Of a DNA stretch of 28,808 nt, positions 2-19,138 are shown piece by piece. The DNA lies in IMG/VR virus record IMGVR_UViG_3300032284_000716, positions 1-28,808 of that record; one strand, 5' to 3'. Every line of letters starts with the position of its first letter. Position 1 is the first letter of the stretch. A program made the translations under genes and the position numbers. A model generated the notes under the pieces. That model saw nothing but the letters and a program-made list of their open reading frames with translations. It had not been told where the DNA came from and ran no database searches. The stretch is from a virus.

Positions 2-3000
2 ACTGAAGAACAAAAAGCGCATAGACAGCTTGTAGCAGAGCGTACTCTTAAAGCTATACCAGAGATTCCTGGGCTTAAACCTTTAGCTGACATTAGTCAT
101 AAAGCCCAGACATCAATACTTAACAGTATTTCACCAAGTGCTAAAAAAGCACTACAGGACTCTCAGATCACCGGTAATATCTTTAAAGGTGAAATTGACT
201 TTGGTAAAAACCCAAGCCTAGAAGGTTACGCACTGCAAGCCGTTAACATCTTTGGTTCTATGGCGCCTGTGGTTGTCGGTACGATGGTGACCAAGAATCC
301 TGAAACAGGTGCGTTAATTGGTGGAGGCATGGCTGCGGACGAAGCTATTGGCAACGCAGTTGAAGCTATCAACAAATTAGATGATAAGCAGTTGGCGCAG
401 CAAAGCCCATTCTTTGCGCAAATGATGAAAGGCGGTGCAACCGCTAAAGAAGCTAGAGATTTAACTTTACGTAAAGCTTCAGAAACTGGGGCTGCGCTTC
501 AAGGCGTAGTGGGTATGTTTGGCGATGACGTGCTTGGTCGTTTTGTTTCTGGGGCTTTTGATAAAGCGCTAACAAAGTTTGCCGGTAAATCTATATTAGC
601 GCACACTGCTGTTGGCACTGGACTTGCTGCTGCTGAACAAGGCTTATCCGAGACTGCCGAGGGTTTAGCCTCTGATGTCGCCAATAAATCTGTTTTACCA
701 AATACAGAACTTGGTCAAGGTTCCGCTGCAAACTTTATTGGTGGTATGTTAGGGGGGCTACCTGCCGGTGCAGGTAGAGGGTTTGTAACTGGGTTAAATG
801 CTAAACTACAGCCCGAACCTAATGCGCCCGCTGGCACACCTAAAATCATATCGCCCATAGACTTTGGTGCGGTAGAGGCCCCAGCTACTGTCACAGACAG
901 GGAGGCCGCAGTTAAACAAGAAACCCAAAGACTAATGTCTCAAAGAGGTTTCAGCGAAGAAGTTTCAAGGGGTATGGCTGAAAAGTCCATTCCGTTAGCG
1001 GCGTTTGCCGAAGAAACTAACGAACCAGAGGAAGAAGAAAATGTTGCAGGACCTAACGCAGAACCAGCTGGAACAAGCGTTCCAGTACCTACAGGAACCG
1101 ATACCACTGCCACCACCGGAGGGGCTGGAGAACCTGAACGAAATGGAGTGGTTTCTAATCAGCAGAATGTTGCAGCTCCTACTGCAGGAGAAAGAGTCGA
1201 GCAACCTGCAATAAACCCATTGCCTAGAGAAGAATTTGAAGAAAAGTACAGGGACTTAACTGAGCGTATCAATGCGTACAACAAGATTGATCCTGAAGAT
1301 AGAACTCCAAGGCAAAACGCAAATTTAGAAGAAGCTCAAGGGCTACTTCAGAACTTAGTAGATGCTCAAGGATACTTTACGCCGCCTCCACAGGCTGCGA
1401 GTGTTGTTCCAACGGTTAATGCAAACGAACCAATTCAAACCCCAGAAGGCCCAGTTGAGCACGCTAACCTATACGCGGCTAATGAATTTTCAAATGAAGT
1501 TACTCCAGAGCATCATGCTGGCGTAACCCAAGCTGCGGCTATAGTAGATAACCCACAAGCTGCGTATGACCAAGCGGTAAAAGATGCTGCTGCTGCCAAA
1601 GAAAACTTTAATCGACTAGATCAACTGTTTAAGTTCCCTGATATAACTGCTGAAGAACAAGTTACACAGGAGCAAAGGGACGAAGCCAAACAACAGTTGG
1701 ACGATGCTTTACTAAAAGCTGACCAAGCACAAGCTGCGTTGGAAGAATCGCAAGCTGCTGCTAAAGAAGCTGCAAGGCAAAGAGCACCTGGCGCTGGTCG
1801 TAAACCTGCGGAGCTTACACCTGAACAACAAGCGGCTAAAGCAAAAATAGCTGCGGATGAACAGGCTGCTAAAGCTGAGGTTGAAAAAGCCAGACGTGGT
1901 GTTAAAAAAGCAGAAGCGTTCTTGTCTGAAGGTCTTGCACCACTAACTGAAGAGCAAATGAAAGACCCCAAAGGGCAGGCTTTTCATGAAAACGACAAGA
2001 CCGCAATGATTGACGAAGCTACGCGTATGCTAGCCGACATCGTCGATAACAGAAGCCTTAAGAATAGGCCAATTGGTAAAAAAGCTAGAGAGCTTCTACA
2101 GACTAACAACATAACTGCTGAAGACATCAAGCGAGCAAGAGCTAAAAAAGCAGCGTCTGAAAAAGCGATTGAAGATTTGTACAGGCAGAAACGAGATTTG
2201 CTTGGGTCTAGTTCTTACGATCAAGTATTTGGTCCATCCTCAATGTCGGCAAGTAATGTTGGGCAAAGCGTCCCTGCGTTTAGCGGAAACAAAACTGCCG
2301 CGCAAGCAATCAACACCATTATGAAATTTGGTGACGAGGTTCAGCGCTATTTTGCCAACCACTTGCGTGGATTTGTTAAAGACGTTAAGTTTGTTGTGCT
2401 AGAAGTCGGCGATGAGTTACCCCCACAATTGAAAAAGTACCAGTCATGGTGGGATTTGTCTCGTGGCTTGTACATTCCTGAGAATGGAAACAAAACCATT
2501 TACGTTCGTGGTGAAAGTTTTGGCCCACATAGGGGCAACGACATTACAACTGTGCTGCATGAGTTGATCCATGCATCGTCAGACGAGCGTATTTATGTGG
2601 GGCAAAATTCACCCAACAACACTGAATTGTCCCGTGCTGTTTCAAGCATTGACGAAATGCGTGAGCGTGCCGCAAGAGTTTTTGAAGCTGGCAAACGCAA
2701 TCGTTTGTTGCCACAAGATTTAATTAACTTGGTAGAAGATGTACCTGACATCTTTACCAACACTTATGAGTTTGTAGCTTACGGCTTATCACAACCCGAA
2801 ATGCAAAAGTTTTTGATGAGCATGCCATCAGATCCAAAGCATTTTACCGAGAGTATGTTTAGTCGGTTTACTCGTGGGTTGATGAACATTTTGGGGTTGA
2901 ACTCAAGCTCCAAAGAAAGATTGAATGCGTTCACAGACTTGGCTATGGTGACAGATAAAATGCTGAACGCCAAGTACACAAGCGCAGAACGAGCAATTGC

Positions 3001-6000
3001 GCAGGGGTACAGAGAGACGCCTATGCAAGCGTCTCCCGCAACTCAGCGGGAAATGTTTGGTAATCATCAGCGAATTAATTTAAGCCGACTCAAAGCCGAC
3101 ACTCTAGGTCACAAGACTCCAGAGCAACAGATTAAATTTTTTGAGAACGCTAAAGCCGAACTGGATGCCGAGCTTGCCAAAGGCGATGCTGGTAGGTTCA
3201 ACGCTAACTGGGCAAAAAACATCGGTAGTGGCAATATGCCCAAAGGCCAAGCTATTGCGCAAAGGGCTCAGCTTGCAGCTAAGCACGTAGAGGCTTTAAA
3301 AGAACATTACGATGATGTAATTAATGAAATTAACCGCACAAGAGAAAAAACGCCTATTGTTTCCGAAAGAACGGCGTTTTTACCGGGGGCTAAAGGGGAA
3401 CCTCCACTTGCATCTGCTGGGTTAAGACAAATTACTGAGAATGATGATCTATATGATGAAATCGGCCCAGCTACAATGATAACTGGGTTTGATACGCACG
3501 GTAATAGAGGCACCGGACTAGGTACTAAACTACTTAAAAGTATTACGGATTGGGCTGATAAAAACAACAAGACTCTAGCGCTTATCCCCTCAGCGCAGCT
3601 TGATGCTGAATTGGGTGGTTTAAACCAAGAGCAATTAAAAAGTTGGTATGAACGAAATGGCTTTGTAGATAAAGCTGACTATATGGTTAGGCAGCCAAAA
3701 GCAATAAAAGCACCTAGCCCTTCAGCTAAACGTAGCGAAGCAGTAACCGAAGCTAAGAAAATCCAAGCGGTTACAACCGAAGGACTTAAAGCAGTTCAAA
3801 CTAGCCGTGAGGGTAATGAGTTAGGTAAAGCCGTTTCTGTTCTACAACAAGTTCGCCACCCCAATAATCTTTGGGGCGAGATAAATTTAATCCTTAGCAG
3901 CGGTAACGAGAAGCTCAATGACTTTTTGTCTTCTTTCTATGACGCCGACGGCTTAGCTAGAAGCGGCCCCAATCTGCAAATCAGTGCGTTGCAAGATGTT
4001 TACAAGAACATGCAGTTGATGAACGGCACTACGCAAAGGATGTTGAGTAATGCAGCAAATGAGATTGATGCATTGCAGACGTTCTACAGAGAAAACCCAA
4101 GCCTCAAGAAACCATTTGAAGACTTTGTTAACGCAACGACGTTTGACAAGTACAACCCTTTGAATCCAAAAGAGAAGGGCACTCCTAAAGCTAAGGTGTA
4201 CGACGAAAAGTTTAAACAGCTCGGCCCTAATGGGCAGGCTGCGTACAAAAGGCTTTATCAGTACTACAAAGATCTGAACAACTACAAACAAGAGTTGCTG
4301 GAAAAATCTTTAAATGACCTCGACCTTGAGGGCGAAGATCGTCAAAAACTACTTAAGGGTTTTAGAGAAGCGTACGAGAGCAGCGATGTAATCGACCCAT
4401 ATTTCCCATTGATGCGTTTTGGTGACTACGTCCTTAACCTTGGCAAAGGTAAAGATAGAGTTGCTTTGCGGTTTGAAAGCAGCAAGGAACGCAAGCGTGC
4501 GCTTAATGAATACGCCAAAAAACAAAACACAACGCCAGAAGCGTTAATCAATTCTGAAAAAGTTTCACTTGTAAACGACACAGGCGGCGCAAAAATGCGG
4601 GGTACTATTGAAGGCACCAGCAAGCTGCTCAAAACTATTTACGACGGCATCAATAACTCCAAGTCAGATGAGTTGACCAAAGGTCGTTTGAAAGACATGG
4701 CTTATCAAGCCTACTTGCAGGCAATGCCCGAGCAAAGCGTTCGTAAATTATTCTTGCATCGTGAAGGCTATCCTGGATTTTCCAGCGATTTGGTTCGTAT
4801 CCTTGCATCTCACTCAGTAAAGGCATCGTCACAGTTCGCCAGGTTAGAGTATGCAAACCCTATGCGCAGAGAGCTGGAAAGAGCTTACAGACAACTCAAA
4901 GGGAACGAACAGTACACGCCGTTCGTAGACCGCATGGCTGAGTTTGTTAGTGAGATGGTTGCTCCTGTGCCAGCAGATCGACTACAAAAAGCTGGTGAAT
5001 GGTTTGTTAACAACTTGGTTGTTCGTCCTTCGTTCCTGCACTCTCTTACTAGCTGGTCGTCGGCAATTATTCAACCTGCTGATATATTCTTAAAGGGTAT
5101 ACCCATACTTGCGGGTAACCACAGTACTGCGGCTGCTACTGCTGAAGTATCTAAAATGTTAAAAGTGTGGAACCAATTGGGGGTTATAGAAACTCTACCC
5201 GATGGAACCAAGCGTTATCGCGCGCCAAGTATTGCGTTTGCTGAAGGGTTGACTGCTGACGAAAGAGAAGCAGTTAGAGCTATGGAAGATGCGGGTGTAA
5301 CTAGAGATACTGTTGCTAACTCCGTATACAACTTCAGTAATAAAGGTAACGTAAACGTGGATTCTAAAGGTTGGCAGACTGCAAAGACTGTCGGTAAGAA
5401 TGTATTGTTTGGTGGAATGATGCACCACACAGAACGTTTGTCACGCGAAGTTATATTTATGGCTGCGTACAGACTTAGCATGAAAGACTTGGCGACCACC
5501 AAAATGCCATTTAAAGAACGCCAGCAAGCGGCTATCAATCAAGCTATCTCAGAAACATTTGAGACCTTTGGTAATTACTCAACATATAGCCGCCCCATGA
5601 TTTTTCGTGGGCCTGTGGGTAAATTTACTTTGCTCTACAAGTTTTTCCCCTACGTCACCACTAAGATCCTTTTAGGTAACGGCCTCAAGATGTTGTCGTT
5701 GACAAACTCAAGGGTTGAAAAACAAGCGGCTGCTAAAAAGTTTTTTGGTACGTTGCTTACACATTTAATGGTAGGTGGTTACGCGGCGCTACCGGCATTC
5801 AGTTTAGTTGTGGCTGCTGTCAGTGCAGCAATGAGGGGCTTTGCCGATAGGGACCCAGATGCACCAGAAGATATGCGGGATAAAGACCCAGTGCTTTGGT
5901 TCCGCACAGTATATATGCCTGAGCTTCTTGGTGATACAGGTTTGGCTAAACTTGTAGAACGTGGTCCAGTTAACTATTTGACTGGCTCGGATTTTTCTAG

Positions 6001-8644
6001 CCGTATATCACTCAATGATATGTGGTACAAAGAACCTGCACCTGCGAACACTGAGAACGAAACGTTGTGGAATTTGGCATTGACTCTTGGCGGTGCTGGA
6101 CCTAATGCAGCATTAGGCTATTATCGTGGGTTCAAGTCGTTCCTTGATGGCGATTATCAAAAGGCTGTAGAGCAATTGGCTCCCGGTTCTTTGGCTGGAC
6201 TTGTGGCTGCTGAAAGAATTCACGAGCGTGGATTAACTACTAGCCAAGGCGACCAGATTGAGAACTACGAAAAAGGTAACGTACCCGCAAGTGTGATGGC
6301 GGGCCAAGCAGTTGGGTTTAGACCTGATGTAGTTACCAACCAACAAAACAAAGCGTTTGCTGCAAATGCAATAGAAAAACGAATTGGTATTGAACGATCT
6401 GCGCTTAGTTCTCAGCTTAAGAATGCTTTCTTGAAAGCTAACGATTACAAACTTAGCGAAGCTGAACAACAACGTTGGGACAATAAGTTTAACGATACTC
6501 TTGAACAGGTAGAACTGTGGAGTGCAAAGAACCCAACTCATGCGTATAGCGCAGATGAAATTCGCAGCTTGTTAAAGAGCTCAGCTAAATTGCAGGAAAA
6601 CAGGACTGAAAACGCTGGGGTTATTGTTAATAGGAAAACTGCTGAAGTGATTAGCCCAGTAGCCGAACAACTTCAAGCCGAAAGAGAAGTTAAAAAAGCT
6701 GGCGGCGGTTCAGTACAGAGTTTTGCTGGAGGCGGTTTGGTTAGGCGTTTTGACGAAGGTGGGTCAACCAACAAATATCCAACAGCGCATGAGATTCTTC
6801 AGCAAAAAATTAATGAGCTTAAAGAACAAAGCAAACAACCTTGGCACCCGGTACAGGAGTGGAACCAAAATGTTCAAGGCGCAATTAAAAGTACAGCAGA
6901 TACTGTTAAAGGTTGGGGACAACTTGTAACCGACCCACGTGCGTATTGGGAAACTTTAAAAGAAAACGTTAGCAAAACAACACCCGAACAAGTTGCAGCG
7001 GCGTTTAACCCTAGTCATATTGGTTTTGCTGGTGCAATCAGACCAAATGTTTCTAACTTTGTACAACCAAAGCCTGTACCTGCTTTCATGCCAGGTATTA
7101 ATCAACCCGTTGGAACAATTGAAAAAGCTCTTGAAAACCATTTGCCACCTTATAGTAAAGAAGATTTACCCATGTTAGAAAGGGGAAAAGATAATGCTAA
7201 ACAACAACTACAAGAACAATGGAATAGCGCTGAAATAGACCCTGAAAGAGAACAAGAACTGATGCACCATATAAGGGATATGGAAGGACACATAAACAAT
7301 ATCCCCAAATATGAAGCACTTTCAAATTGGGTGAAAAAAAATTTATATAACTATGTTAAAAACGAAATGGGTACACCAGATGATCCCGTTCGTAAATTAG
7401 CGGATCAAGGCGTATTGCACACTGATGCGGCTTTTGGGTTAACCCACCCAATGTCATATATGACACAAGCGAGAAGAAAAATAAGCGGGCTGCCAAAAGA
7501 AGGTTACGCTACTACTGCTTTAGGTAAACGTTGGGAAAATATAACCGACGATATGCTTATACCGGTGACTAAAAAAGAATTAGAAGATGCTGACGCAGTA
7601 GCTAACTCCAACCCAAATGCACCCATGATAAGGGGGGATCGGCAAAGGGCTTATACATACCAAGATAATCCTTGGATGAAAGATAGACCAGACGACAGTC
7701 GGTTTTTTATGCTGAACACAAATTTATTCAACAGGCTTGATTTTGACCATGTGGTTGATACACTTCGAGAACAGTTGCATAACGGAACAGTTGCACCTGA
7801 AAATTTAAAAAATATTTCAGTACCACAAGCGGTGCGTAAAACTTTCGAAGCGCAAGAAAGAGCTCGTAAACTAGAAGAACAACAAAAGCAGGACGCATTA
7901 AAACAAGTTTTAGATGCTTCGCCCGTAAAAAAATACGATAACGGGCATAAATGGATTGCTTTGCCTGACCCAAATGAATCTGATACAAATATGAAATTTT
8001 GCCAAAATATTGGCGTGAGCGGTGGATGGTGTACACAGCAAGAAGCTAATGCTAAGCATTACGGTGATTCTACTCAAGGACGCCAGCTTTATGCATTGGT
8101 TGACCCAAAAGGTAAAGCCCATTTACAAATTCAAACAACAGCATACCCTTGGGAGCATGATGATTTACTTGACCGTTTGGGGGAACCAAACGCTGATGCA
8201 ATATTAAACAAAGTAGATGACGGTAGTATTTCCGATTCTCAACAACTTAATGAAGAAATGAACAAAGCATTTGGGCCAAGACCTCCAACTGTTACTGAAA
8301 TAAAACCACCAAGCAACAGTTGGGAAGGTTCTATATCTTATGGCAGAATTGAAAAAGATCCCGACTATGTACAAAAATATAAACCGTACATTAAAGACTT
8401 TTTAAACTCGGGTGACTGGGGTAGAGTAAACAGAGCTGATTTACTTGAGCACGCAGATACGCGCGATTTAAATAATTATGGCGAACTTGTGACACACGGT
8501 GCTCGTTTGGGTTTAAATTTACCTAGGTTTATTGACAACCCAACATTTCAATCTTTAAGCGATTCATGGGTAATGGGGGATGAAGCAGCATCACAACCCA
8601 TGCCTGATCCACTAAGGCAATATCAAACGCCACCGACGCAATAG
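2..8644 (+). CDS. Giant multidomain polyvalent/virion-type protein, 5'-partial
   Basis: The frame is open from base 2, so the protein starts outside the window; 2880 residues are visible. Counting from the ATG at 260: alanine/glycine-rich segments at about 75-180; an Ala/Glu/Lys-rich probable coiled coil at about 435-560; a zincin-like HELIH at 767-771, preceded by a hydrophobic strand; a GNAT-like acetyltransferase segment at about 1050-1150, with RGTGLGTKLL (motif A) and later WYERNGFV; a region around 1780-1810 (GPVGKFTLLYKFF) like those of phage large polyvalent proteins; a hydrophobic stretch at about 1830-1860; glycine-rich repeats near 2145-2175; and a C-terminal part with FCQNIG, GWCT and YALVDPKGKAHLQIQ that recalls PcfJ-type CVG/YC modules. 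Known of such proteins: many are packaged and injected with phage DNA to protect it or modify the host. That role is inferred here. It is the only plus-strand gene and converges on the replication operon. Confidence 0.85.
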   Translation, partial: TEEQKAHRQLVAERTLKAIPEIPGLKPLADISHKAQTSILNSISPSAKKALQDSQITGNIFKGEIDFGKNPSLEGYALQAVNIFGSMAPVVVGTMVTKNPETGALIGGGMAADEAIGNAVEAINKLDDKQLAQQSPFFAQMMKGGATAKEARDLTLRKASETGAALQGVVGMFGDDVLGRFVSGAFDKALTKFAGKSILAHTAVGTGLAAAEQGLSETAEGLASDVANKSVLPNTELGQGSAANFIGGMLGGLPAGAGRGFVTGLNAKLQPEPNAPAGTPKIISPIDFGAVEAPATVTDREAAVKQETQRLMSQRGFSEEVSRGMAEKSIPLAAFAEETNEPEEEENVAGPNAEPAGTSVPVPTGTDTTATTGGAGEPERNGVVSNQQNVAAPTAGERVEQPAINPLPREEFEEKYRDLTERINAYNKIDPEDRTPRQNANLEEAQGLLQNLVDAQGYFTPPPQAASVVPTVNANEPIQTPEGPVEHANLYAANEFSNEVTPEHHAGVTQAAAIVDNPQAAYDQAVKDAAAAKENFNRLDQLFKFPDITAEEQVTQEQRDEAKQQLDDALLKADQAQAALEESQAAAKEAARQRAPGAGRKPAELTPEQQAAKAKIAADEQAAKAEVEKARRGVKKAEAFLSEGLAPLTEEQMKDPKGQAFHENDKTAMIDEATRMLADIVDNRSLKNRPIGKKARELLQTNNITAEDIKRARAKKAASEKAIEDLYRQKRDLLGSSSYDQVFGPSSMSASNVGQSVPAFSGNKTAAQAINTIMKFGDEVQRYFANHLRGFVKDVKFVVLEVGDELPPQLKKYQSWWDLSRGLYIPENGNKTIYVRGESFGPHRGNDITTVLHELIHASSDERIYVGQNSPNNTELSRAVSSIDEMRERAARVFEAGKRNRLLPQDLINLVEDVPDIFTNTYEFVAYGLSQPEMQKFLMSMPSDPKHFTESMFSRFTRGLMNILGLNSSSKERLNAFTDLAMVTDKMLNAKYTSAERAIAQGYRETPMQASPATQREMFGNHQRINLSRLKADTLGHKTPEQQIKFFENAKAELDAELAKGDAGRFNANWAKNIGSGNMPKGQAIAQRAQLAAKHVEALKEHYDDVINEINRTREKTPIVSERTAFLPGAKGEPPLASAGLRQITENDDLYDEIGPATMITGFDTHGNRGTGLGTKLLKSITDWADKNNKTLALIPSAQLDAELGGLNQEQLKSWYERNGFVDKADYMVRQPKAIKAPSPSAKRSEAVTEAKKIQAVTTEGLKAVQTSREGNELGKAVSVLQQVRHPNNLWGEINLILSSGNEKLNDFLSSFYDADGLARSGPNLQISALQDVYKNMQLMNGTTQRMLSNAANEIDALQTFYRENPSLKKPFEDFVNATTFDKYNPLNPKEKGTPKAKVYDEKFKQLGPNGQAAYKRLYQYYKDLNNYKQELLEKSLNDLDLEGEDRQKLLKGFREAYESSDVIDPYFPLMRFGDYVLNLGKGKDRVALRFESSKERKRALNEYAKKQNTTPEALINSEKVSLVNDTGGAKMRGTIEGTSKLLKTIYDGINNSKSDELTKGRLKDMAYQAYLQAMPEQSVRKLFLHREGYPGFSSDLVRILASHSVKASSQFARLEYANPMRRELERAYRQLKGNEQYTPFVDRMAEFVSEMVAPVPADRLQKAGEWFVNNLVVRPSFLHSLTSWSSAIIQPADIFLKGIPILAGNHSTAAATAEVSKMLKVWNQLGVIETLPDGTKRYRAPSIAFAEGLTADEREAVRAMEDAGVTRDTVANSVYNFSNKGNVNVDSKGWQTAKTVGKNVLFGGMMHHTERLSREVIFMAAYRLSMKDLATTKMPFKERQQAAINQAISETFETFGNYSTYSRPMIFRGPVGKFTLLYKFFPYVTTKILLGNGLKMLSLTNSRVEKQAAAKKFFGTLLTHLMVGGYAALPAFSLVVAAVSAAMRGFADRDPDAPEDMRDKDPVLWFRTVYMPELLGDTGLAKLVERGPVNYLTGSDFSSRISLNDMWYKEPAPANTENETLWNLALTLGGAGPNAALGYYRGFKSFLDGDYQKAVEQLAPGSLAGLVAAERIHERGLTTSQGDQIENYEKGNVPASVMAGQAVGFRPDVVTNQQNKAFAANAIEKRIGIERSALSSQLKNAFLKANDYKLSEAEQQRWDNKFNDTLEQVELWSAKNPTHAYSADEIRSLLKSSAKLQENRTENAGVIVNRKTAEVISPVAEQLQAEREVKKAGGGSVQSFAGGGLVRRFDEGGSTNKYPTAHEILQQKINELKEQSKQPWHPVQEWNQNVQGAIKSTADTVKGWGQLVTDPRAYWETLKENVSKTTPEQVAAAFNPSHIGFAGAIRPNVSNFVQPKPVPAFMPGINQPVGTIEKALENHLPPYSKEDLPMLERGKDNAKQQLQEQWNSAEIDPEREQELMHHIRDMEGHINNIPKYEALSNWVKKNLYNYVKNEMGTPDDPVRKLADQGVLHTDAAFGLTHPMSYMTQARRKISGLPKEGYATTALGKRWENITDDMLIPVTKKELEDADAVANSNPNAPMIRGDRQRAYTYQDNPWMKDRPDDSRFFMLNTNLFNRLDFDHVVDTLREQLHNGTVAPENLKNISVPQAVRKTFEAQERARKLEEQQKQDALKQVLDASPVKKYDNGHKWIALPDPNESDTNMKFCQNIGVSGGWCTQQEANAKHYGDSTQGRQLYALVDPKGKAHLQIQTTAYPWEHDDLLDRLGEPNADAILNKVDDGSISDSQQLNEEMNKAFGPRPPTVTEIKPPSNSWEGSISYGRIEKDPDYVQKYKPYIKDFLNSGDWGRVNRADLLEHADTRDLNNYGELVTHGARLGLNLPRFIDNPTFQSLSDSWVMGDEAASQPMPDPLRQYQTPPTQ

Positions 8645-17214: not shown

Positions 17215-17333
17215 TCTTCCTCCGGAGGTAATCTAAATTCCCAAAAGCCATAAGCATCGCCTCGGCTCCATCTTTCCCATGAAAAATGTACATCCCTTGT
17301 GCTCTTATTGATGTACTTCCACAGTACACGCAT
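17211..17333 (-). CDS. Very small tryptophan-rich phage protein, 40 aa
   Basis: Read directly from the sequence: the ATG at 17333 shares its A with the stop of the polymerase gene (TGATG), and its stop overlaps the next ATG (ATGA). The protein is MRVLWKYINKSTRDVHFSWE, then RWSRGDAYGFWEFRLPPEEE, with four tryptophans and an acidic end. No domain is known. The GGAGGAAG at its 3' end is also the ribosome binding site of the following gene. Confidence 0.6.
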   Translation of the reverse strand: MRVLWKYINKSTRDVHFSWERWSRGDAYGFWEFRLPPEEE

Positions 17334-19138
17334 CAGCAATCCCCATAAGAAGCGCCCACACCTGATTCACAGTTAAGGGGCAAGTCTAAACACCAATTGG
17401 GCCTCCAACGCATGCACGTCTCAACGTACTCACGAGCTTGTACGGCTTCGGGTATAGGAACAATACAAGCAATCGCATCATGCACAGTCATAACAACTTT
17501 GTATTTCTTAGCGATCATTAGCATCTGTTCGCCAATCACAATACGAGCTAACGCCTGACATACGTTCTCGATGACTTTCCCACCATAGATACGTGTCGCT
17601 ATCATTTGCCGACCACGCTTGGTGTCGTAGACCAACTCGCTTTTATCTTCGTTCTGAACCACACGCAGGTTTGGGTACTTGATGTAAAGTCCGTTGGGTA
17701 ACTTGATACCCTTTTTACCTTCTACGTCCAGTATCCCAAGTTTTGTGTGCTTATCGCTCATGATGGCTTTAAGGGCTAGTGCTCCGTCTTTCCATAGTTC
17801 AACAATTTTTGGGTATGTCGCACGATAAGTTGCAATGATTCTCTTTGATTCAGCCTCAATAATTTCGACTCCAAAAGTCTTAAGCTGCGCCTTAAATTTA
17901 ATTGCTCCCATGCCGTACCCCGCACCAAGAATGGTCGTTTTGCCAACGAACCTTTCATTCTTTGTAATTTCTGCTTCTCCTTTAGCATAGATAGCCGATG
18001 CCATGATTTTGTATACGTCCTGCCCATTTTCAAATGCCTCTACTAAATCGTTTTGTTGAGCTAACCATGCTAAAGTACGAGCTTCAATTTGAGATGAATC
18101 AGAATCAATCACTACGTAACCATGTGGAGCTAAGATAGCACCTTTAAGAAATGATGTTCTTGGTAAGTTCTGAAGGTTAATCTTATCGTCGCCACCCCAA
18201 CGTCCTGTATGAGCTGCGTAGTAACGCAACATGACTGGTAACGTACCTCGATTCGCAATATCCAGAAACCTCTTTGCTCTTGTTTCTTCTATCGTAGACT
18301 TAGCGCCCAATCTGGCTGCCACAACCGCTTGCACAGGCTGAGATGGGTGTTCGAGTAATGCTTTGAATTCCTCGTCGGTCTTGGCAAATGCGTAAGTTTC
18401 TTTACCAGTCGTTTTGCTAATTTTGGTTGGGGGTATAACGTCAAGCGATCTGAGTACGTCGGCAAACTTGTCGTTGCTCATCAACTCATCTTCGTTGTAT
18501 TGAGCAAGAGCATGGCGTCTAGCGTTTTGAACTGAGATGTAATAGTCTTTGAGGGATAAATTATTCAACATGAGCGCAGGCTCGGTGAACATCCGTATGG
18601 TTAAGTCGATCAGATTATGTTCGAGCTTTGGCAACTGACCCTGCATCAATAGGAACAACTCCCACGTAAGCTTTACATCGTTCTTGCAGTACTCACCATA
18701 GGTTGCTAGATGTTGCGGGGTGAAATTAGCACGTCGGTATCCCTTCGCATCCTCAACCTCTGTGCCTTTGACGCCAACGCCATAATGCTCGGCTAATGTT
18801 TTAAGACTGCCTCCCACCTCTGTGCCGATGAGCGCCCGCCCCATACTGAGAGTGCAAGCCCACTTCTTAGGTTTGATCCCAAATCTCCAGTTTAAAATCG
18901 CCCCGTCGAACTGAGCGTTGTGAGCTATGGCTACGGAGTTATCCCAATCGTACTGGGCAAGGAACTGGTGCAACTCGTTGAAAGATCCAGAGAACCACGT
19001 TGGCGCCCCATCGTTTACGGCTACGGCTACGCCAATAACCTCAAAGAGTTCATCTCTGATGTACTCCTCGGTCGTGAGCTTAGTCAAACTAAACTCAGGC
19101 GAGTAATATGTTTCAAAGTCTATGGTTAAAAAATTCAT
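17333..19138 (-). CDS. polA-like: Family A DNA polymerase with 3'-5' exonuclease domain
   Basis: Compact T7/Pol I-type replicative polymerase of 601 residues. The proofreading domain is at about 1-165: D7-x-E9 (IDFETYY), D78 (HNAQFD) and D154 (YCKNDV). The polymerase domain shows motif A DSSQIEAR (D347), motif B R396-x3-K400 to Y408-G409 and motif C TVHDA (H553, D554). The residue equivalent to E. coli Phe762 is leucine (L404), and the glutamate usual after the motif C aspartate is alanine (A555). No 5'-3' exonuclease domain is present. The start overlaps the upstream stop as ATGA with no clear ribosome binding site, so translation is probably coupled. It should replicate the phage genome with the primase-helicase, SNF2-type helicase and ssDNA-binding protein of the same operon. 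Confidence 0.95.
   Translation of the reverse strand: MNFLTIDFETYYSPEFSLTKLTTEEYIRDELFEVIGVAVAVNDGAPTWFSGSFNELHQFLAQYDWDNSVAIAHNAQFDGAILNWRFGIKPKKWACTLSMGRALIGTEVGGSLKTLAEHYGVGVKGTEVEDAKGYRRANFTPQHLATYGEYCKNDVKLTWELFLLMQGQLPKLEHNLIDLTIRMFTEPALMLNNLSLKDYYISVQNARRHALAQYNEDELMSNDKFADVLRSLDVIPPTKISKTTGKETYAFAKTDEEFKALLEHPSQPVQAVVAARLGAKSTIEETRAKRFLDIANRGTLPVMLRYYAAHTGRWGGDDKINLQNLPRTSFLKGAILAPHGYVVIDSDSSQIEARTLAWLAQQNDLVEAFENGQDVYKIMASAIYAKGEAEITKNERFVGKTTILGAGYGMGAIKFKAQLKTFGVEIIEAESKRIIATYRATYPKIVELWKDGALALKAIMSDKHTKLGILDVEGKKGIKLPNGLYIKYPNLRVVQNEDKSELVYDTKRGRQMIATRIYGGKVIENVCQALARIVIGEQMLMIAKKYKVVMTVHDAIACIVPIPEAVQAREYVETCMRWRPNWCLDLPLNCESGVGASYGDC

Follow-up and report, generated by a model that had tools for sequence, protein, structure and literature searches.

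A giant polyvalent phage protein combining zincin-like, GNAT-like, PLxRFG and PcfJ-like regions as a probable internal-virion ejection protein

What does a phage gain from a protein so large that a single open frame takes up the left third of the virus record in which it is found? The record considered here, IMGVR_UViG_3300032284_000716, is 28,808 bases long, and this whole stretch is referred to below as the window. A preliminary description of the window had noted one frame of at least 2880 residues with a putative protease motif, a putative acetyltransferase and a PcfJ-like C-terminal block, and had proposed that an injected protease and acetyltransferase could modify host proteins or defence factors on entry. 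The frame at 2..8644 on the plus strand is indeed open for 2880 aa. Its first in-frame ATG lies at nt 260, with no start upstream before the window edge, and because the frame is open to that edge without a start, the protein is probably longer than 2880 aa. Residue numbers given here count from nt 2 and are 86 lower if counted from the ATG, as those of the preliminary description seem to have been. We argue below that the phage is of podovirus type and that the ORF probably encodes one of its internal-virion (ejection) proteins, a giant of the T7 gp16, phiKMV gp37 and PhiM1 kind with enzyme cassettes added. The features that enter into this argument are:

2..8644, plus strand: giant polyvalent / PLxRFG protein, 2880 aa in the record, its 5' end cut by the contig edge
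2..1201, plus strand: N-terminal region, residues 1-400, weakly similar to the N-terminal parts of relatives L042, L046 and L016
2258..2971, plus strand: zincin-like metallopeptidase domain, residues 753-990, from profile, conservation and predicted fold
2558..2572, plus strand: HELIH, residues 853-857, a sequence motif conserved in the alignment
2768..2770, plus strand: E923, predicted third zinc ligand (EFVAYG motif), invariant in 30/30
3334..3704, plus strand: GNAT-like cassette, 371 bp, with 11 bp instead in relative L002 (net 360 bp, or 120 codons)
3506..3667, plus strand: GNAT core, residues 1169-1222, motif RGTGLG, Pfam PF13508 match
3797..6655, plus strand: PLxRFG block, residues 1266-2218, aligned to relatives, with NF032893 covering residues 1466-2212
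3938..4972, plus strand: PLxRFG sub-part, residues 1313-1657, whose model resembles the T7 core protein and PhiM1 ejectosome chain A
6698..6736, plus strand: linker AGGGSVQSFAGGG (AGGG), residues 2233-2245, the fusion point
7199..8641, plus strand: PcfJ-like C-terminal block, residues 2400-2880, homologous to the terL-portal gene of phage DSL-LC04
8888..27978, minus strand: convergent replication module with primase/helicase, helicase, exonuclease, DNA polymerase, endonuclease, HNH endonuclease and ATPase

Polyvalent proteins in the sense of Iyer et al. 2017 are phage or plasmid proteins that unite at least two domains of unrelated kinds, some of them enzymatic, and with its zincin, GNAT-like, PLxRFG and PcfJ-like regions the giant protein is one of them. 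No structural genes were found in the window besides the giant ORF, so gene order is visible only in relatives; scans of the window for tRNAs and tandem repeats found none. The DNA polymerase of the replication module (17333-19138, minus strand) is closest in the phage collection to those of the Rhizobium phages RHph_TM3_14A/TM27A/TM27B/TM29 (37% identity), followed by that of Pseudomonas phage KPP25 (36% identity).

The protease motif of the preliminary description held up, both as a motif and as a fold. HELIH at 853-857 corresponds to 767-771 from the ATG, inside the interval 740-800 in which a zincin had been suspected. A zincin profile built on three sequences and used to scan viral contigs recovered 36 loci. 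After setting aside L001 (a piece of the window), repeat loci of one contig and L048 (a weak match), as was also done for the spacing counts below, H853, E854, H857 and E923 proved invariant in all 30 aligned sequences, namely the window, 28 distinct relatives and LUZ19 gp37. The joint invariance of the HExxH and the downstream E923 means that HELIH is no chance motif. The AlphaFold model of the region shows a zincin fold with high confidence (pLDDT mostly >90), with strands, the HELIH helix and a second helix carrying the Glu. A profile search of genome contigs for further zincin relatives found none. The domain appears to be dispensable in PLxRFG proteins, because five PLxRFG relatives (L006, L008, L009, L011 and L012, the 5' end of L009 being cut) have neither a zincin nor an HExxH upstream.

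Comparisons at the sequence and structure levels place the closest relatives of this zincin in phage ejection machinery. Against the PDB, zincin profile A1 matched chain 9sfn_G, named 'Internal virion protein' (E 2.9e-13). A 155-aa stretch of this chain is 100% identical to LUZ19/LKD16 gp37, and of 118 phage records that match the tested stretch, 60 do so with an identity of 99% or more. LUZ19 gp37 also agrees with the chain at every position of its 230-aa zincin stretch; by sequence identity, then, the chain is a phiKMV/LUZ19-type gp37, and a search of papers for 9sfn gave no hit. A review counts phiKMV gp37, with its 1337 aa, among the gp16 homologues (PMC8954989). A further match of the window zincin is to phrog_2206 (E 2e-12), the family of N4-type virion RNA polymerases, in whose proteins zincins are mentioned in PMC5512222, and a passage of the N4 structure paper notes an HExxH in subdomain C1 of the virion RNA polymerase (PMC12633501). 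Among 969 chains compared by VIA-align, the zincin model was best matched by residues 289-506 of 8vb2_A from the PhiM1 pre-infection ejectosome (Z 10.4, rmsd 3.3, 147 aligned), with lethal-factor zincins coming after it at Z about 5-6; plain Foldseek of this model against the PDB gave no match at E <=0.001. The PhiM1 core protein has HEAAH at 385 and a zincin profile match of 23.0 bits. Its authors called the segment Asp268-Asp528 endolysin/exotransglycosidase-like, a passage of their paper citing BLASTP and DALI searches (PMC11440229); our results point to a zincin in this region instead.

The annotation as endolysin/exotransglycosylase recurs in both phages: in the PhiM1 core protein (L141:10198-13989) the domain so annotated matches the zincin by profile and fold, and in LUZ19 gp37 (L051:6825-10838) the zincin-profile match, with HEAVH at 423, falls in a domain of the same annotation. 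A search of the open-access literature, with most subscription journals outside its scope, found no report of a zincin in phiKMV-type ejection proteins.

The largest conserved part of the giant protein, which was absent from the preliminary description, is the PLxRFG block. NCBIfam NF032893 matches residues 1466-2212 with 269.8 bits (E 4.9e-80), exceeding the curated cut-off of 100 bits. The predicted model is mostly helical (pLDDT 62.7), and in a VIA-align comparison with 943 chains the first rank went to 9jyy_I, 'core proteins of mature T7' (model residues 48-392, Z 8.8, 227 aligned, rmsd 5.8), and the third to residues 553-910 of 8vb2_A (model residues 47-398, Z 7.2, 219 aligned, rmsd 5.9), Z values under about 13 being common among helical models. 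The same stretch of the model is matched by both chains, and the 8vb2_A stretch lies C-terminal to its zincin, just as the block does in the window. Large polyvalent proteins headed the BFVD matches (E down to 1.7e-33), with an Internal virion protein D at rank 22 (E 1.1e-5); plain Foldseek against the PDB returned nothing at E <=0.001 and no ejection protein among the first 50 rows. PLxRFG profiles found no match among PDB sequences, and a direct sequence link of the block to phiKMV gp37 or PhiM1 TEP was dropped, since no significant similarity was found to LUZ19 gp37 by profile and hhalign or to PhiM1 TEP by profile. Middling as these Z values are, the model comparisons suggest that the block may have the ejection-core fold of T7 gp16 and PhiM1 TEP, an identity that we regard as likely and of which we found no statement in the open-access literature, subscription journals being mostly outside that scope. 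Towards the end of the block, window positions 6381-6665 are diverged from L002 between flanks of 93% and 98% DNA identity.

Between the zincin and this core lies the region that had been put down as a putative acetyltransferase. Motif A of GNAT domains has the form [Q/R]xxGxG/A. The window has RGTGLG, starting at about residue 1169 (1083 from the ATG, within the interval 1050-1150 given in the preliminary description), and its R and both G are invariant in 4/4 aligned sequences. The cassette is clearly homologous to segments of three PLxRFG phage proteins, found by tblastn in Skulduggery, ZX1 and Parlo at E 1e-8 to 3e-6 and with 34-41% identity, but the Pfam signal is weak: PF13508 reaches E 0.0059 on the whole giant protein, under the curated cut-off, and E 1e-4 on the cassette alone, with 23.0 bits against a cut-off of 27. 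A four-sequence GNAT profile, A6, returned 15 rows from the PDB, 7 of them named acetyltransferase, the best being an amidase chain (E 1.3e-4). The region appears short at its N-terminus, and in the predicted structure the cassette is mostly at pLDDT <50 because no aligned row covered it. A pattern search of viral contigs for GNAT relatives found none, and among the loci collected here for relatives of the giant protein and of the PcfJ-like block, profile A6 matched only the window (and L001).

In the comparison of the window with L002, the GNAT is an in-frame presence/absence cassette. Window positions 3237-3333 are 99% and 3705-6381 are 93% DNA-identical to L002, with 371 bp in one and 11 bp in the other in between; the proteins are 98% identical over the 267 residues right of the cassette, and the match on the left runs to the end of the L002 contig. 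Of 29 distinct proteins having both zincin and PLxRFG block, 27 show a gap of 38-53 aa between the two, and wider gaps occur in L042 (200 aa) and the window (274 aa). In L008 and L012, an ART-PolyVal ADP-ribosyltransferase stands right before the PLxRFG block (E 1.2e-22 and 3.3e-20) and the zincin is missing; enzyme modules seem to be exchangeable, swapped in ahead of a constant PLxRFG core. By position, this ART-PolyVal sits in the slot that holds the zincin in other relatives. The naturally polymorphic GNAT is new within what was searched, and two near-identical phages with and without it offer a natural experiment on effector exchange in what would be a delivery machine.

The C-terminal block, for its part, can be called PcfJ-like, as the preliminary description had it, by homology only: Pfam PF14284 (PcfJ) does not match the window block, and it is the homologous 825-aa 'PcfJ-like protein' of phage DSL-LC04 (OR003939) that matches it, at E 5.2e-9. 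Giant proteins of this sort do not normally include the block, which is a relocated segment of the gene that lies, as in DSL-LC04, between terL and portal. Among 80 loci retained out of 283 relatives recovered with a profile of the block, terL precedes and/or portal follows the block gene in 79 (both in 42, terL only in 33, portal only in 4), the single exception, L061, being on the same contig as L002; no zincin or PLxRFG block was found in the block-bearing genes of the 79. Apart from the window and L002, where the tail after the PLxRFG block is 662 aa long, this tail measures 38-88 aa in all relatives with a preserved 3' end, and in 12 records checked (10 giant-protein relatives besides L002; most of them fragments) the block occurs only in the window and L002. 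The relocation is directly visible in these placements; its direction, from a packaging-region gene onto the ejection protein in the window/L002 lineage, we infer from the terL-portal arrangement being the common one. The added block is new within what was searched. In L062-L140, the gene with the PcfJ-like block adjoining terL/portal has an ORF of up to 2818 aa.

The gene order of the relatives bears on where such a protein would act. In L003, which is 30-31% identical to the window protein in aligned parts, a holin, an endolysin, a virion structural protein, two unassigned genes, a 135-aa gene and a 745-aa DNA ejection protein (phrog_4287, E 1e-20) are followed directly by the giant; L004 has a 745-aa ORF at the position matching the L003 ejection-protein gene, and in PhiM1 and LUZ19 the zincin protein is the last of the annotated internal virion/core genes. 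In CsCl-purified virions of podovirus JC1, a 4515-aa 'DarB-like' protein was detected with 51 unique peptides, as given in PMC9144972; the comparison with this protein, JC1 gp69, goes by its 'DarB-like' label, and the summary of a tblastn search with a PLxRFG query names no Burkholderia phage. By analogy with the relatives' gene order and the JC1 proteomics, the giant protein is probably packaged in the virion. The conserved 135-aa gene of L003 (4818-5225), two genes before the giant, is GNAT-like by eye and has no significant profile match; annotated acyltransferases lie upstream of the giant proteins of Skulduggery and JC1.

These data can be set against other accounts of the protein. It appears doubtful that, within an ejection protein, the zincin and GNAT have degenerated into structural remnants without catalytic activity: the GNAT falls under the Pfam cut-off and is apparently N-terminally short, and L002 lives without it, but the HExxH and third ligand are invariant in 30/30 and the GNAT keeps its RxxGxG motif. 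It is unlikely that the protein is a bundle of host-directed effectors, packaged purely as cargo, whose protease and acetyltransferase inactivate host defence on entry with no conduit role. Passages of PMC5512222 count ARTs, GNATs and zincins among the conflict domains of polyvalent proteins, the ART-PolyVal of L008 and L012 lies just ahead of the PLxRFG block, and the GNAT comes and goes as a cassette; the most conserved parts, however, are not the cassettes but the zincin and the PLxRFG block, which are shared with ejection-machine proteins or resemble them. The earlier idea of an injected protease and acetyltransferase is thus supported as regards entry with the DNA, but the zincin need not be a host-directed weapon, because its nearest relatives sit in DNA-ejection machines (phiKMV gp37, the PhiM1 ejectosome, N4 vRNAP).

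The label found in public records, where many relatives are entered as DarB-like, would make this an antirestriction protein that shields incoming DNA from restriction, and phrog_10089, 'DarB-like antirestriction', does match at E 4e-46. Yet the window matches only positions 3946-4632 of this 4647-position profile, and its protein has no helicase or methyltransferase Pfam domain, both of which Skulduggery and Parlo have; such a function is very unlikely. DarB-type antirestriction was accordingly rejected as the main label, with only the C-terminal end of the profile matched and neither helicase nor methylase found. As for the C-terminal fusion, no relative except L002 carries it, as might be expected of an assembly artefact, but L002 is a separate IMG/VR record, about 1-9% different in DNA, with the same in-frame fusion, which makes an artefact barely credible.

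Under the ejection-protein reading, which we prefer, packaging, ejection, catalysis and targets may be pictured as follows. The giant protein would be packed in the head above the portal together with a second ejection protein and would exit with the DNA, the zincin and the helical PLxRFG core making up part of a DNA conduit. The zincin might then cleave itself, its partner or an envelope or host protein, whereby the channel would be opened or the cargo domains freed. Lodged in the linker that joins zincin and core, the GNAT cassette would serve as an exchangeable effector acylating a host (or phage) target on entry, and the C-terminal PcfJ-like block would have been captured from a gene kept between terL and portal in other phages. 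A broader proposition, which we regard as evenly balanced, is that the whole PLxRFG/'DarB-like antirestriction' family is the T7 gp16/PhiM1 TEP ejection-core family, a delivery machine whose conserved helical core bears, immediately on its N-terminal side, effectors that can be swapped (zincin, GNAT, ADP-ribosyltransferase), and that the phiKMV-type 'endolysin/exotransglycosylase' domain is a zincin metallopeptidase. The many giant phage proteins that now bear an antirestriction or function-unknown label would thereby gain a testable role in DNA ejection, and a metallopeptidase is predicted within well-studied ejection machines whose domain is now annotated as peptidoglycan-degrading.

Among known systems, the closest parallels are the proteins of Serratia phage Parlo, Pseudomonas phage Skulduggery and Klebsiella phage ZX1, which, like that of the window, carry a homologous GNAT ahead of a C-terminal PLxRFG block. 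In Parlo there is in addition a zincin that matches the profile of the window's zincin, whereas the HEAFH of Skulduggery gives no match to it. The combination of zincin, GNAT and PLxRFG is therefore already present in Parlo, and the domain set, suspected earlier to be undescribed, is only partly new. Pfam found no SLT, helicase, methyltransferase or LPD39 domain in the window protein, although Parlo and Skulduggery have all of these; the window protein in turn adds the PcfJ-like block relative to all three. The gp37 of phiKMV/LUZ19 and the PhiM1 TEP (1337 and 1263 aa) share the window's zincin by sequence, and PhiM1 also by fold; in both, the zincin is N-terminal to a helical core and the genes follow other internal-virion genes. 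Their cores have no sequence similarity to that of the window, and unlike in the window no GNAT or PcfJ-like block was seen in them. The N4-type virion RNA polymerase (gp50) likewise shares the zincin domain, and is described in a passage of PMC12633501 as a giant ejected protein with an HExxH-bearing subdomain C1 followed by a large helical C2; no RNA polymerase was found in the window protein, unlike N4 gp50. Finally, the stand-alone 'PcfJ-like protein' of DSL-LC04 is homologous to the window block, including a GGG-type N-terminus and the PcfJ-like segment, but is encoded by a separate gene between terL and portal, whereas in the window the block is fused to the giant protein.
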